Assembly: GCA_035998445.1 (NCBI GenBank)
Contig: DASYHQ010000059.1
Coordinates: 1-64,000, forward strand
Source: Tepidisphaeraceae bacterium
Lineage (GTDB): Bacteria; Planctomycetota; Phycisphaerae; Tepidisphaerales; Tepidisphaeraceae
Length of the DNA stretch: 64,000 nt
Reading direction: 5' to 3'
Shown here: positions 1,573-44,205 of the stretch, in pieces
How positions within the stretch are numbered: position 1 is the first letter of the stretch
Layout of the letters: each line of letters opens with the position of its first letter
Notes under the pieces: model-generated
What the model saw: the letters and a program-made list of their open reading frames with translations, nothing else
Databases searched by the model: none
Told to the model about the DNA's origin: nothing
Program-made: the position numbers and the translations under genes

Positions 1573-3435
1573 TCACACGGTTTCCCGTGGGCCCGCACGG
1601 TCCAGGTGGATCGCAAGCACCGTTACGTCCGATGGCGTGATGCCGCTGATGCGCAACGCCTGGCCGAGGCTGCGCGGCGTGAAGGTCATCAGCTTCTGCC
1701 TCGCCTCGTTGCGCAGGCCGACGACGGCGGTGTAGTCGATCGACGGCGGGATGAGCTTCGTCTCCATCTTCGCGAAGCGTTCCAGCGCGCGATCCTGCCG
1801 GGCGATGTAGCCCTCGTATTTCGCCGCGATCTCGATCGCCCGGCCGGCGTCGGGCGTGATGGCGCGCAGCACGTCCGGCAAGCTACCGACGCGCTGCAGG
1901 CTGGCCCAGTCGTTCTCCGACCGCCGCAGCCATTCGAAGGCGAGCACGCCTTCAACGCGCGTCGTCTTCATCAGTTCTAACCCCACCTCGATCGCATCAC
2001 GGCGGGCGGTGAAGCGGGTCCAGCGATCATCATCCACCAGCCCCGCGGCCCGGCCGATCGGCGTGAGGCGCGTATCAGCGTTGTCCGCCCGCAAGTGCAG
2101 GCGATGCTCGGCCCGGCTGGTGAACATGCGATACGGTTCGGTCGGCGGCTTGGTGACGAGATCGTCGACCAACACGCCGATGTACGCCTGATCGCGCTTC
2201 AGCACGAAATCCGCGACGCCCGTCGCGGCGTAGCGGGCGGCGTTCAAGCCTGCCACCAACCCCTGCGCCGCGGCCTCTTCGTAGCCGCTGGTGCCGTTGA
2301 TCTGGCCCGCCAAGAACAGGCCGCTGACCTTCTTCGTCTCCAGCGTCGATCGGATCTGCGTCGGCCAGACCATGTCGTATTCGACGGCGTACCCGTGCCG
2401 CAGGATCTGGGCGTGGGCCAGCCCGGGAATCAGCCGGACGATCTGTTCCTGCACCTCGGCGGGCAAACTGGTGCTGATGCCGTTGCAGTAGATCTCGTCC
2501 GTCTCCAGCCCCTCGGGCTCTAGGAAGATGTGGTGCGACAGCTTATCGGCGAACCGGACCACCTTGTCCTCAATGCTCGGACAGTACCGCGGCCCCGTCG
2601 ACTGAATCTGCCCGCTGTACATTGGCGCGCGGTGCAGGTTCGCGCGGATGATCTCGTGGACCTGCTCGTTCGTGTTCGTGATCCAACACGGCACCTGCGG
2701 CAGCGGCGGGCGCCAGGGCGCACTGCCAGGCTGTCCGTACTCGTTCAAATACGAGAACGGCATCGGCTCGTCGTCGCCGGGCTGCAATTCGAACAACGAG
2801 AAGTCGATCGTCTCCTTCTTCAGCCGTGGCGGCGTGCCGGTCTTCAGACGGCCCAGTTCCAGGCCGAGTTTGACCAGCGATGCGCTCAGCCCCTTCGCCG
2901 CCGCCTCACCCACGCGGCCGCCTTCGGTCTGGCGTTCGCCGGTGTGCATGAGGGCCCGCAGGAACGTGCCGGTGGTGACGATCGCGGCACGGCAAGGCAG
3001 CGCACGGCCGTCGGCGAGTTGCACGCCAGCGACGCGCGTACCCGTGGCATCGGCGAGAATCTCCGCCACTTCCCCTTGCACGATGTCCAGGTTCGGGCAC
3101 GTAGCCAGCAGCCGTTGGACTTCGATCGCGTACTTGTACTTGTCCGCCTGCGCACGCGGTCCCCAGACGGCCGGGCCCTTGCTGCGGTTCAGCATGCGGA
3201 ACTGGATGCCGGTGGCGTCGGTCGCCAGGCCCATCAGGCCGCCGAGCGCGTCGATCTCGCGGACCATCTGCCCCTTGGCCAGGCCGCCGATGGCGGGGTT
3301 GCAGCTCATCGCGCCGACGCGGTTCGGGTCGAACGTGACGAGCGCGACCGTTGCCCCCGTGCGCGACGCCGCCCACGCGGCCTCCGCGCCGGCGTGGCCG
3401 CCACCAATCACCACAATGTCGTACGAACGTGCCAT
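1573..3435 (-). CDS. mnmG: tRNA uridine 5-carboxymethylaminomethyl modification enzyme MnmG (GidA)
   Basis: The 620-residue length matches the family. The FAD-binding motif [19 protein letters not shown] opens the protein. The family blocks [19 protein letters not shown] (about 155-175), [15 protein letters not shown] (about 280-295) and [16 protein letters not shown] (about 375-390) follow, with the helical C-terminal domain that contacts MnmE and tRNA. With MnmE it installs the carboxymethylaminomethyl group on wobble U34 in the cytoplasm. No mnmE or rsmG is adjacent in this window. It follows a small membrane-protein gene by 13 bases on the same strand. Confidence 0.97.
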
Positions 3436-5530: not shown

Positions 5531-6634
5531 ATGACCCCTCTCCCTCCCCAATCCGAACCGCGCAATCCGCACTCGGCGATCCCCCTCTTCCCCTTCGTGA
5601 AGCTGGCGGATCCCGCAACCTACGTCGCCTGCTCATGGGACCTGGTGGCGGACGCCGAGGCGCGGGTCTACTGGTGCGAGTTCTTCAAACGACACGTCCG
5701 CACGATCATGAAGCTCGGCATCGAAGCCGTCGAGTCGCGCGGCGGGCATCGGGACGACGCCGAGCGCCGGGCGGCGGCGCTGCTCACCGAGTTCGACGCC
5801 TTCTACGACCACGTCATCAGCCAGCCGACCGATTATGGCCGGGTGACGATCCTGCAGCTGGACCTCTGGCGCGACGCGATGCTGCGCAAGCACGGCTTCG
5901 TCGACGCGTTCATCGACCTGAAAAACCGCGAGAACGAGAAGATGCTTCCCCTGCTGCCCGCCGCCTGCGCGCAGCTGGATGCGCTAGGCGGGCTGGAACA
6001 GGTGAAGGCCATCATCGAAGGGGTGTTCGCGGGCAACATCTTCGACATGGGGGCCGAGGCCACGGCCAAGGCGTTCGTGAACGGCAGCCCCGACTTCTTC
6101 GCGATCCGCGCGACGCTCTCGCCCCGCCCCTGGCTGATCGACGATTTTGATGCGCTCGCCGACCGCCTGCTGAACGGCCCGCGGCACCGCAAGGCCGTCT
6201 TCTTCATCGACAACGCCGGCAGCGATTTTCTGCTTGGCGCGATCCCGATGATCCGCTGGCTGGCCATGCGCGGCACGCGCGTCGTCATCACCGCCAACGA
6301 GCGGCCCACGCTCAACGACATGACGATTCACGACGTGAACGCCTGGTGGCCGCGCATCCTCGCGACGGAACCCTCCTTGGCCGCACTGCCCATCGAACGC
6401 GTCACCAGCGGCACGGGTGAACCGCTGATCGATTTGCTCGGCGTGTCGGCCGAGCTGAACGCCGCCGCCGCCGATGCGGACCTGGTGATCCTGGAAGGCA
6501 TGGGGCGTGGCGTCGAGAGCAACCTGGACGCCGCGTTCAACTGCGATGCGATCAACCTGGCGATGATCAAGGACCTCGCCGTCGCCAAACGCCACGCCGG
6601 CAAGGTGTACGACTGCGTCTGCCGGTTCCGATAA
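5531..6634 (+). CDS. DUF89/ARMT1-fold damage-control phosphatase (PANK4 phosphatase-like)
   Basis: A 367-residue DUF89-family protein. The segment FFIDNAGSDFLLGAIPMIR near 225-245 supplies the D-N-x-G-x-D metal site. RGTRVVITANERPTLNDMT and LVILEGMGRGVESN (near 317-335) are the other conserved blocks, closely matching the phosphatase domain of eukaryotic pantothenate kinase 4. That family dephosphorylates 4'-phosphopantetheine and oxidised derivatives, acting as metabolite repair on the CoA pathway. The substrate is inferred from these motifs and is not proven. No kinase domain is fused. The ATG at 5531 has no clear ribosome binding site, so the first 25 or so residues may be extra. Confidence 0.75.
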   Translation: MTPLPPQSEPRNPHSAIPLFPFVKLADPATYVACSWDLVADAEARVYWCEFFKRHVRTIMKLGIEAVESRGGHRDDAERRAAALLTEFDAFYDHVISQPTDYGRVTILQLDLWRDAMLRKHGFVDAFIDLKNRENEKMLPLLPAACAQLDALGGLEQVKAIIEGVFAGNIFDMGAEATAKAFVNGSPDFFAIRATLSPRPWLIDDFDALADRLLNGPRHRKAVFFIDNAGSDFLLGAIPMIRWLAMRGTRVVITANERPTLNDMTIHDVNAWWPRILATEPSLAALPIERVTSGTGEPLIDLLGVSAELNAAAADADLVILEGMGRGVESNLDAAFNCDAINLAMIKDLAVAKRHAGKVYDCVCRFR

Positions 6635-6751
6635 GCATGACCGCTCGGCCAACACGTCCGATTTCGCCGCGAACGCCGCAGCCCGATAATATTCCTGTTT
6701 GCGGGCCTGGGTCGGCGCGTCACGTCGCGCAGCGCACGCTCGCCAGATCGT

Positions 6752-7024
6752 AACCAATTGGTTGCGCCGCATAACCAATTGCTCGAGCCGCGCAACCAAT
6801 TGGTTGCGTCGCGCAACCAATTGCTCGAGCCCCGTAACCAATTGGTTGCGCCGCGCAACCAATTGCTCGAGCCGCGCAACCAATTGCTCGAGCCCCGCAA
6901 CCAATTGGTTGCGCCGCGCAACCAATTGCTCGAGCACCGTAACCAATTGGTTGCGCCGCGCAACCAATTGCTCGCGACCCGTAACCAATTGGTTGCGCCG
7001 CGTAATCAATTGCTCGCGACCCGC
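6752..7024. repeat. 13-unit tandem array with 21-bp period
   Basis: Thirteen units of exactly 21 bp follow each other without gaps. Every unit starts AACCAATTG (AATCAATTG in the last). Two types nearly alternate: one continues GTTGCGCCGC, making AACCAATTGGTT a perfect palindrome, and the other continues CTCGAGCC or CTCGCGAC. Because 21 is a multiple of three the array is open in several frames and gives false heptad ORFs (NQLVAPR/NQLLEPR). It lies between the DUF89 gene and an HD phosphohydrolase gene, with no gene inside. Confidence 0.95.
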
Positions 7025-7285
7025 GGCCGGTTCGCTGAGCACCGCCGCCAAGCGGCGGCGGCATTCGGCGGGCTCGCCCGACGTCGCAACAAACTGCCAT
7101 CGCGGCGTGGCCCATCTGCAAAGCGATGCGGACCACTGGGCGCGATTCGCTACGAAGTCGCTTCCACGCCAGTTCGATGCGCCGGAGCGATCGACCGCCG
7201 TACCCCGGGCGGCCCACCCATGTCCGCCGCGAAGGAAACGGGCGGGCCGCCCGTTGTACGGTCGCGCGATCGGCGTTCGCTCCAA

Positions 7286-7422
7286 CCGTGGCATGGGCGT
7301 CTCGCCCATGCACTCGGGAAGCACGAGCGGTCCAATTAAAGCCAGTTCGCTTCGATAGAACGCTGCCCAACCAACATCATTTTCCGGCCTTCACACGCAT
7401 GGGCGAGACGCCCATGCCACGG
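7286..7422. repeat. Inverted-repeat element, family A copy 4
   Basis: CCGTGGCATGGGCG on the left and CGCCCATGCCACGG on the right frame about 80 bases of unique sequence. The palindrome centres (TCTC left, GAGA right) are complementary. The 260 bases between the 21-bp array and this element show no gene or other clear signal. Confidence 0.9.
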
Positions 7423-7509
7423 TGAAGACGCCGCTGGCCGTCGCCGCTGCGCCCCCTTCGGTGCAATTCCTTCGCGTCTTCGGGGCTTCGCGGTTAATTT
7501 TCTCTTCCG

Positions 7510-8793
7510 ATGCCGCTCGCCGAGAAAATCATTCGCGACCCCGTTCATGATGTGATCGCGTTCCGCGTCGATCGCCCGCTGGATGCGCTGCTGTTTCGCC
7601 TGATCAACGCGATCGAGTTCCAACGCCTTCGCCGCATTCGCCAGTTGGGGCTGGCCAGCCTGGCCTATCCCGGGGCCGACCACTCGCGCTACAGCCATAG
7701 CCTGGGCGTGATGGAGACGGCGCGGAAGATCATCGACCAGCTTCGCCGATCGTTCACGATCGACGAGGAAGGCGAGGCCGTCTGCATCGTGTCGGCGCTG
7801 CTGCACGATCTTGGCCATGGGCCGTTCAGCCACGTCTTCGAGCGCGTGAGCGGCATCCATCACGAACTGCTGACGCAGCGGGTGATCAGCGACCCCGACA
7901 GCGAGGTGCACCGCATCCTGTTCGGGTTCGACCGCCTGATGCCCGAGAAGGTGATCGACTTCCTCAACTGCCGGCCCAAACGCACGTTCTTCTGCGACAT
8001 CATCTCCAGCCAGCTGGACGCCGACCGCTTCGACTACCTGCTGCGCGACAACCTGATGACCGGCAGCCGCTACGGCGGGTTCGACCTCCGCTGGCTGCTG
8101 CACGCGCTGACGATCGACGAGGCCAGCGACCGGCTGGCGGTGACGTGGAAGGGCATCAGCGCCGTCGAGGCCTATTTGCAATCGCGCTTCCACATGTACC
8201 GCAACGTCTACTTCCATAAGGTCGTCCGCAGCGCCGAGGGCATGGTGAAGCTCGCGCTGCAACGCGCCCGCCTGCTGGCGGCGCAAGACCGCCTGCCGAA
8301 TTTGCGCGAGACGAACGTCTACAAGGCCCTGCTGGGCCAGCGCATGACGATGCAGGAGTTCGCCGAACTGGACGACGTGTCGGTGCTGTCTGGCTTCAAG
8401 GAATGGGCCCGCTCGACCGACCCGCTGCTGGCGATGCTCTGCAAGGGCCTGCTGTATCGCCGGGTGTTCAAGACGATCGAGCTGTCGCACGTGGACGCAC
8501 CCACCGCCGCCGATGCGTTCGCCCGCGCCAGCGACGCCGTCAAACGTGCCGGTGGCGAGCCGGCGTACGAACTCTTCTACGACGAGCCCGCCAGCACACC
8601 CTACGAAATGTTCGACCCCAAGGAGGCCGCCGCGGGGAAGGAGATTCTGGTGCAGGACATGAGCGGCAAGCTCACCCCCTTCGGCCAAGTCTCCCCCATG
8701 ACGCAGGCCCTGAACCGCCAACTGATGTTCCGGCGGTTGCACGTCGCGCCGGCGCACAAGGCGATCGTGACCGACGCGCTGGCGGGAACCTGA
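7510..8793 (+). CDS. HD-domain phosphohydrolase (SAMHD1/dGTPase-like)
   Basis: A 427-residue protein opening with KIIRDPVHDVIAF. It has the HD-superfamily metal site (H in GADHSRYSHSLGV near 60, HD in ALLHDLGHGPFSH near 98, and a downstream D in ADRFDYLLRDN near 178). This layout is typical of the COG1078 dNTP triphosphohydrolase-like group related to SAMHD1. The likely reaction is hydrolysis of dNTPs or another nucleotide in the cytoplasm. No regulatory domain is evident. It faces a convergent glycosyltransferase gene across a 640-bp palindromic spacer. Confidence 0.9.
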   Translation: MPLAEKIIRDPVHDVIAFRVDRPLDALLFRLINAIEFQRLRRIRQLGLASLAYPGADHSRYSHSLGVMETARKIIDQLRRSFTIDEEGEAVCIVSALLHDLGHGPFSHVFERVSGIHHELLTQRVISDPDSEVHRILFGFDRLMPEKVIDFLNCRPKRTFFCDIISSQLDADRFDYLLRDNLMTGSRYGGFDLRWLLHALTIDEASDRLAVTWKGISAVEAYLQSRFHMYRNVYFHKVVRSAEGMVKLALQRARLLAAQDRLPNLRETNVYKALLGQRMTMQEFAELDDVSVLSGFKEWARSTDPLLAMLCKGLLYRRVFKTIELSHVDAPTAADAFARASDAVKRAGGEPAYELFYDEPASTPYEMFDPKEAAAGKEILVQDMSGKLTPFGQVSPMTQALNRQLMFRRLHVAPAHKAIVTDALAGT

Positions 8794-41620: not shown

Positions 41621-41880
41621 CTCGTTTACTCTCACGCCCTCAGAGTAACCCTCACGCCCTCCCGTTTACTGCGCAACCCTCCCGTTTTCCCTGCGACCTT
41701 CCCATTTACTCTGACGCCCTCCCATTTACTCTCACGCCCGCTCGTTTACCCTGAGCCCGTCCCATTTACCCTGAGCCCTTCACAGTAAACGACACGCCCT
41801 CCCATTTACTGCGCGACCGTCAGAGTAAACAACACGCCCTCCCATTAAACGAGAAGCCTCACCGTTTTCTCCCAAGCCCG
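41621..41880. repeat. 13-unit tandem array with 20-bp period and inverted sub-words
   Basis: Thirteen successive 20-bp units keep strict register. Most read CCC(A/G)TTTAC(T/C)CT followed by a variant of GACGCCCT. In the units at 41641, 41781, 41821 and, partly, 41841 the first half is flipped (CAGAGTAAAC instead of GTTTACTCTG) while the second half keeps its orientation. There are no unique spacers, so it is not a CRISPR array. No gene overlaps it. Confidence 0.93.
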
Positions 41881-43779: not shown

Positions 43780-43850
43780 ATGGCGCGGGGACTACGGCCG
43801 GCGGCGGGCGGGGTCATCTACCACGTCCTCAATCGCGGCAACGCGGCGGG
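43780..43850 (+). pseudogene. N-terminal fragment of a REP-associated tyrosine (Y1) transposase
   Basis: MARGLRPAAGGVIYHVLNRG is the start of a RAYT/Y1_Tnp protein (M-x-R-x-x-R then G-x-x-Y-H-V-x-N-R). The frame then passes into the tandem REP-like element at 43850, and the catalytic His-x-His and Tyr regions are absent. Upstream GGGGTCACGTCTGATTTTCC resembles sequences often found before such genes. A full protein would be 150-300 residues. Confidence 0.6.
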
Positions 43851-44205
43851 TGGCATGTCCTTCGAATGTGGGTGCCATGGCCACGCGGGGGGAGACCGTT
43901 GGATGATCGGATGGACGTCCCGCGTGGCCATGTCTTTCGTTCGGACTAAGACATGGCCACGCTTCGAACGCTTCGGCTGACGGGCGCGATCGGCAGGCGT
44001 GGCCATGGCACCCATCCCACCGGCACCCGCCGGGTGGCATGTCCTTCGGAAGTGGGTGCCATGGCCACGCGGTGGAAGTCCGTTGGATGATCGGATGGAC
44101 GTCCCGCGTGGCCATGTCTTTCGTTCGGACTAAGACATGGCCACGCTTCGACCGCTTGGGGCTGACGGCGCGATCGGCCGGCGTGGCCATGGCACCCGCC
44201 GTCGG
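43850..44205. repeat. Two tandem copies of a REP-like element, family G
   Basis: The unit of about 180 bases starts GGGTGGCATGTCCTTCG and runs through GTGCCATGGCCACGC, GGATGGACGTCCCGCGTGG, and AAGACATGGCCACGCTTCG to GGCGTGGCCATGGCACCC. The second copy begins near 44033 and is about 90 percent alike. GTGGCCATG words face one another several times, so each copy can fold into nested hairpins. It replaces the body of a Y1 transposase gene. Confidence 0.88.

Follow-up and report, generated by a model that had tools for sequence, protein, structure and literature searches.

For the intergenic tandem repeats of a planctomycete considered here, the closest comparison is with bacterial intergenic minisatellites or VNTRs (MLVA loci, and the planctomycete intergenic tandem repeats of PMC9426551), which are likewise non-coding, arranged in tandem, lineage specific and changed in copy number by whole units. 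A second precedent is provided by the heptameric intergenic tandem repeats of prokaryotes, a genome-scale and unexplained preference for one intergenic period, 7 (survey PMC6344855). Here, we describe an array at positions 6752-7024 of the window, that is, of the whole 64,000-nucleotide stretch of Tepidisphaeraceae DNA that was analysed. Like a minisatellite, it is built of head-to-tail units within the 10-100-bp range in non-coding DNA and is lineage specific, as judged from the 100 relatives searched; in contrast to minisatellites as usually described, nearly all arrays of this genome have a single period, of two helical turns, combined with dyad symmetry and mutually unrelated sequences. 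The likeness to the heptameric repeats lies in the genome-scale preference for a single period in intergenic DNA, whereas the periods here are 21 and 20, the latter not a multiple of 7. Literature searches found no published description of a class of two-turn intergenic arrays. We conclude that the window array probably belongs to a genome-wide class of palindromic intergenic minisatellites that has expanded in this lineage, is dynamic and dispersed, and has its step fixed at two B-DNA turns (21 bp or, less commonly, 20).

The window array consists of 13 ungapped 21-bp units with CAATTG at the identical place in each, a layout that had been given in a preliminary description of this DNA and is confirmed both by the units as written out and by TRF (6752-7018, period 21, 12.7 copies, 78% matches, 0% indels, score 317). 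The same description had all units sharing AACCAATTG, which is correct for 12 of the 13; the last unit instead reads AATCAATTG. Two unit types, neither assigned to a strand, alternate almost strictly, as had been noted, so that a higher order of 42 bp results, with a single break at 6857/6878. Type-one units (GGTT; starts 6752, 6794, 6836, 6899, 6941 and 6983) are dyad-symmetric, for example AACCAATTGGTTGCGCCGCAT at 6752-6772, and their perfect palindrome is longer than first described, extending to GCGCAACCAATTGGTTGCGC in several units. The seven type-two units (starts 6773, 6815, 6857, 6878, 6920, 6962 and 7004), for example AACCAATTGCTCGAGCCGCGC at 6773-6793, bear the expected mark CTCGAG or CTCGCG. 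In the consensus of the array, 10 of 10 positions pair around the 21-mer circle, and as single-stranded DNA the array folds much more stably than its dinucleotide shuffles (z = -11.9). Across the assembly (5.84 Mb in 64 contigs, the window belonging to contig C59), the pattern CAATTG-N15-CAATTG is found only in three arrays and one isolated pair, and a reversed control pattern is found nowhere; the window array is far beyond chance.

The array lies in a spacer at 6635-7509 (no strand), left intergenic by a codon-usage gene call, in agreement with its earlier placement in non-coding DNA. The spacer is flanked by two codirectional forward-strand genes: upstream, at 5531-6634, a damage-control phosphatase ARMT1-like gene (PF01937) and downstream, at 7510-8793, a gene for an HD-domain protein (PF01966, PF19276). 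Searches of the spacer for promoter-like, terminator-like and Rfam matches found none, and a known RNA was rejected as the identity of the array on the lack of an Rfam match; a phage or plasmid origin was likewise searched for, with no match. Just downstream of the array, at 7291-7311 and 7397-7417, are dispersed REP-like palindromes, GCATGGGCGTCTCGCCCATGC and its reverse complement, which give rise to recurrent GMGVSPM/GRDAHAT-like peptides in open reading frame calls. An inverted-repeat element at about 7197-7260 recurs close to several of the other arrays in this genome.

Two further arrays of the same genome have a related unit, one on contig C51 at about 62.6-62.95 kb, with a 42-bp dimer, and one on contig C45 at about 32.46-32.86 kb. 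The C51 unit, AACCAATTGGCCGCGCACCGC in reverse orientation, is one base away from the C45 unit, so these two arrays appear to share descent across their entire unit, beyond a short core. The three CAATTG arrays have units in common and flanks without any shared sequence. The preliminary description had suggested a search of the genome and its relatives for further arrays; all six genomic occurrences of the 12-mer palindrome AACCAATTGGTT fall inside the window array, and 25 family and 75 class genomes yielded no array matching that of the window, the one hit being 25 bp long (E = 0.006). The HD gene is matched in 22 of 26 family genomes, this genome counted; at the ortholog loci that were recovered from relatives, no such array is present and the HD gene has no ARMT1-like neighbour.

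Period scans over about 1.82 Mb, or 31% of the genome, place the window array among many others. Four-copy intergenic arrays were found at lags of 21 bp (25), 20 bp (6), 42 bp (3), 40 bp (1) and 24 bp (1) and at no other lag between 11 and 49 bp, nine short lag-10 entries being chance matches that are gone at a stricter threshold; a mononucleotide shuffle contained no four-copy array. The two-copy intergenic scan gave 56 clusters at lag 21 and 7 at lag 20, with 2, 0 and 0 at lags 19, 22 and 24, no more than 4 at every other lag from 15 to 39, and harmonics at 40, 42, 60 and 63. High-confidence genes, with 2.4 times the intergenic length, gave 4, 6 and 3 at lags 18, 21 and 24, so that 21 is not special there. 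From an intergenic peak at 20-21 bp and the lack of such a peak in genes it follows that the preference is for two helical turns, not for codons. It is confined to intergenic DNA, and it upholds, at the level of the class, the earlier idea that 21 bp stands for two turns and keeps helical phase. From one array to another the units mostly have unrelated sequences, and several families are found at two or three loci. Extrapolated from 29 four-copy arrays of 20-21 bp per 1.75 Mb, the genome would hold about a hundred; of intergenic 7-bp arrays, the 31% that was read contains one. The window array looks like a member of this two-turn minisatellite class and unlike a site dedicated to an origin, a centromere or a regulator.

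Two observations made in passing concern other members of the class. At 41625-41810 the window carries an intergenic array of 20-bp period (TTTACTCTGACGCCCTCCCA type), to which an array at L179:17185-17320 is related. Contigs C50 and C62 both end in one 21-bp array and are identical there over 101 bases (L210:1-101, L220:5303-5568); such arrays therefore probably break the assembly, and the counts are likely low.

Symmetry and change in copy number are properties of the class as well. Compared with shuffles, the consensus units of 28 arrays, whose families are not fully independent, are enriched in palindromic symmetry (combined p = 4e-8). In one pair of paralogous elements, L190:14689-15214 and L246:10688-11112, flanks match on both sides, the main block being about 90% identical, and the arrays have about 10.7 and 5.8 units, respectively, so that change by whole units is demonstrated for the class, in an array other than that of the window. 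A perfect 40-bp duplication at L190:14651-14732, present as a single copy in L246, is recent and corresponds to about four helical turns. The arrays of L172, L246 and L179 have a common flank beside them, and array flanks contain dispersed palindromic elements. Variable copy number and unit lengths away from multiples of about 10.5 bp had been named beforehand as the marks of a neutral minisatellite; copy number does vary, in the paralogues just described, and unit lengths stay at 20-21 bp. A strict absence of indels was dropped as an argument, as relaxed scoring finds some in other arrays.

We favour the amplification of dyad seeds under a two-turn constraint over phased protein binding and over transposon-linked spread. 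A short dyad-symmetric seed in non-coding DNA would have been tandemly amplified, perhaps through template switching or strand slippage where palindromes tend to form hairpins or cruciforms; the array would then have become longer or shorter by whole units or dimers, which could produce the 42-bp alternation, and related arrays would have reached a few other loci. Helical phase may act as a geometric constraint on which duplications form or survive, and AACCAATTG itself would be without a sequence-specific function. Slippage alone gives no reason for 21 bp as opposed to 18, 19, 22 or 24, and genes show no clear 21-bp excess, so some factor specific to intergenic DNA is left unexplained; a general polymerase bias cannot be the explanation when genes have no preference, unless intergenic palindromic seeds are required. 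More tentatively, we suggest as a possibility of some, if modest, weight that a dedicated activity or nucleoid architecture in some bacteria, strongly in this one, writes or preserves duplications only in two-turn steps and only in intergenic DNA, giving about a hundred sequence-unrelated phased dyad arrays. The unit length of minisatellites is usually regarded as an accident of slippage; unrelated intergenic repeats of 20-21 bp, in a genome whose genes lack the bias, suggest instead a physical or enzymatic ruler on intergenic DNA, and with such a ruler the question of what sets bacterial repeat length would become directly testable.

A cooperative array, in which selection maintains the register of dyads that are bound, once every two turns and on a single DNA face, by a nucleoid-associated or regulatory protein, would account for the exact two-turn register, the dyad symmetry of the units and the limitation of the preferred period to intergenic DNA, and arrays are slightly in excess in divergent, promoter-bearing regions (8 of 21 arrays, compared with 20% of the intergenic length). 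We nevertheless judge it rather unlikely. The divergent-region excess is not significant (p = 0.056), the lack of AACCAATTGGTT outside the window array means that there are no dispersed operators, and the array is not conserved in relatives, whose recovered ortholog loci are without it; the cooperative regulator array of the preliminary description is thus not supported. In addition, dozens of unrelated unit sequences have the one period, and one sequence-specific protein cannot explain a step that they have in common; a variant of the proposal would give each array family its own protein or have one protein read shape rather than sequence.

It is more doubtful still that small mobile or REP-like elements, spread by transposases of the Y1 (RAYT) type, contain the arrays as internal parts, with transposition fixing the unit length. 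The likeness to REP/BIME elements with RAYT lies in the dispersed intergenic palindromes and the Y1 genes of this genome, which has eight matches to Y1 transposases, seven of them above the cut-off; some arrays moreover travel with their flanks (L190/L246 and L172/L246/L179), in which palindromic elements are found. However, such elements are common anyway in the intergenic DNA of this genome, and the three CAATTG arrays have their units in common without their flanks. REPs are not known as strict 21-bp tandems that run head to tail for 10 or more units, and no Y1 transposase is known to build 21-bp tandem arrays.

Coding DNA with a heptad repeat is very improbable. Twenty-one bp equal seven codons, CAA TTG reads Q-L on both strands, and a frame of NQLxxxR heptads is open throughout all three CAATTG arrays, with low nonsynonymous-to-synonymous ratios in two of the three (0.31 and 0.23), ratios that are pairwise counts among linked, non-independent units and gain no support from the column test. 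In that test the variability of unit columns has no 3-base periodicity in any array (combined p = 0.98 over 25 arrays; p = 0.66 for the window array), and this outweighs the open frames and low ratios, so that the coding reading is largely refuted. Several other frames are as open as the NQL frame, most heptads of the window-array frame contain proline, degenerate units of the C45 array continue beyond an in-frame stop, and class members of 40 and 80 bp have stops in all six frames.

Replication-origin iterons or a parS-type centromere, both raised in the preliminary description, are scarcely credible: the spacing is regular and the short repeats bear dyads as in such arrays, about 46 kb separate the related C51 array from a ParB gene, and the window has an MnmG-like gene at 1573-3435, a gene often linked to the origin in other bacteria, but DnaA maps to C17 and C18 and ParB to C51, with neither on the window contig, the window has no site within two mismatches of canonical parS, the neighbours of the array are the ARMT1-like and HD genes with no adjacent initiator gene, its core is absent elsewhere in the genome, no clear GC-skew switch occurs at the array, and none of the 100 relatives conserves it. 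That the 150-kb contig C51 carries both the ParB gene (at 15.9 kb) and a related CAATTG array (at 62.6 kb) is probably a coincidence.

Beyond this genome, the two-turn class may be widespread and patchy. Sets of three CAATTG spaced at 15-27 bp are rare in the 343 phylum genomes searched, and long arrays of them are found only in this genome. A conserved motif was rejected, the 100 relatives and the 342 other phylum genomes having given just short CAATTG repeats with other units; short 21- or 42-bp CAATTG arrays of different units were seen at L014 1482-1559, L150 1462-1583 and L151 1495-1553 (genomes G011, G159 and G354). A 249-kb sample of family relatives, small and partly drawn from genic loci, contained no four-copy array of 20-21 bp, compared with about four expected at the density of this genome. 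Among 84,980 species genomes, four phased CAATTG were found in at least 120 stretches, which belong to Planctomycetes, Bacteroidetes, Nostoc-type cyanobacteria and other groups; this search fixes motif and period and so proves little alone. CAATTG itself was discarded as the key, since the units of these stretches differ and the pattern had selected for CAATTG. Where those loci hold other arrays without the query pattern, 21 bp is still, among the matches listed, the commonest period (14 of about 33). Viral contigs gave counts of 10, 59, 7 and 30 at 20, 21, 22 and 24 bp, where multiples of 3 are probably inflated by coding DNA, and we do not use them as proof. Apart from the arrays, the window carries at 43847-44197 a 184-bp tandem duplication, 94% identical, and a related duplication of 171 bp is found at L230:18619-18963.
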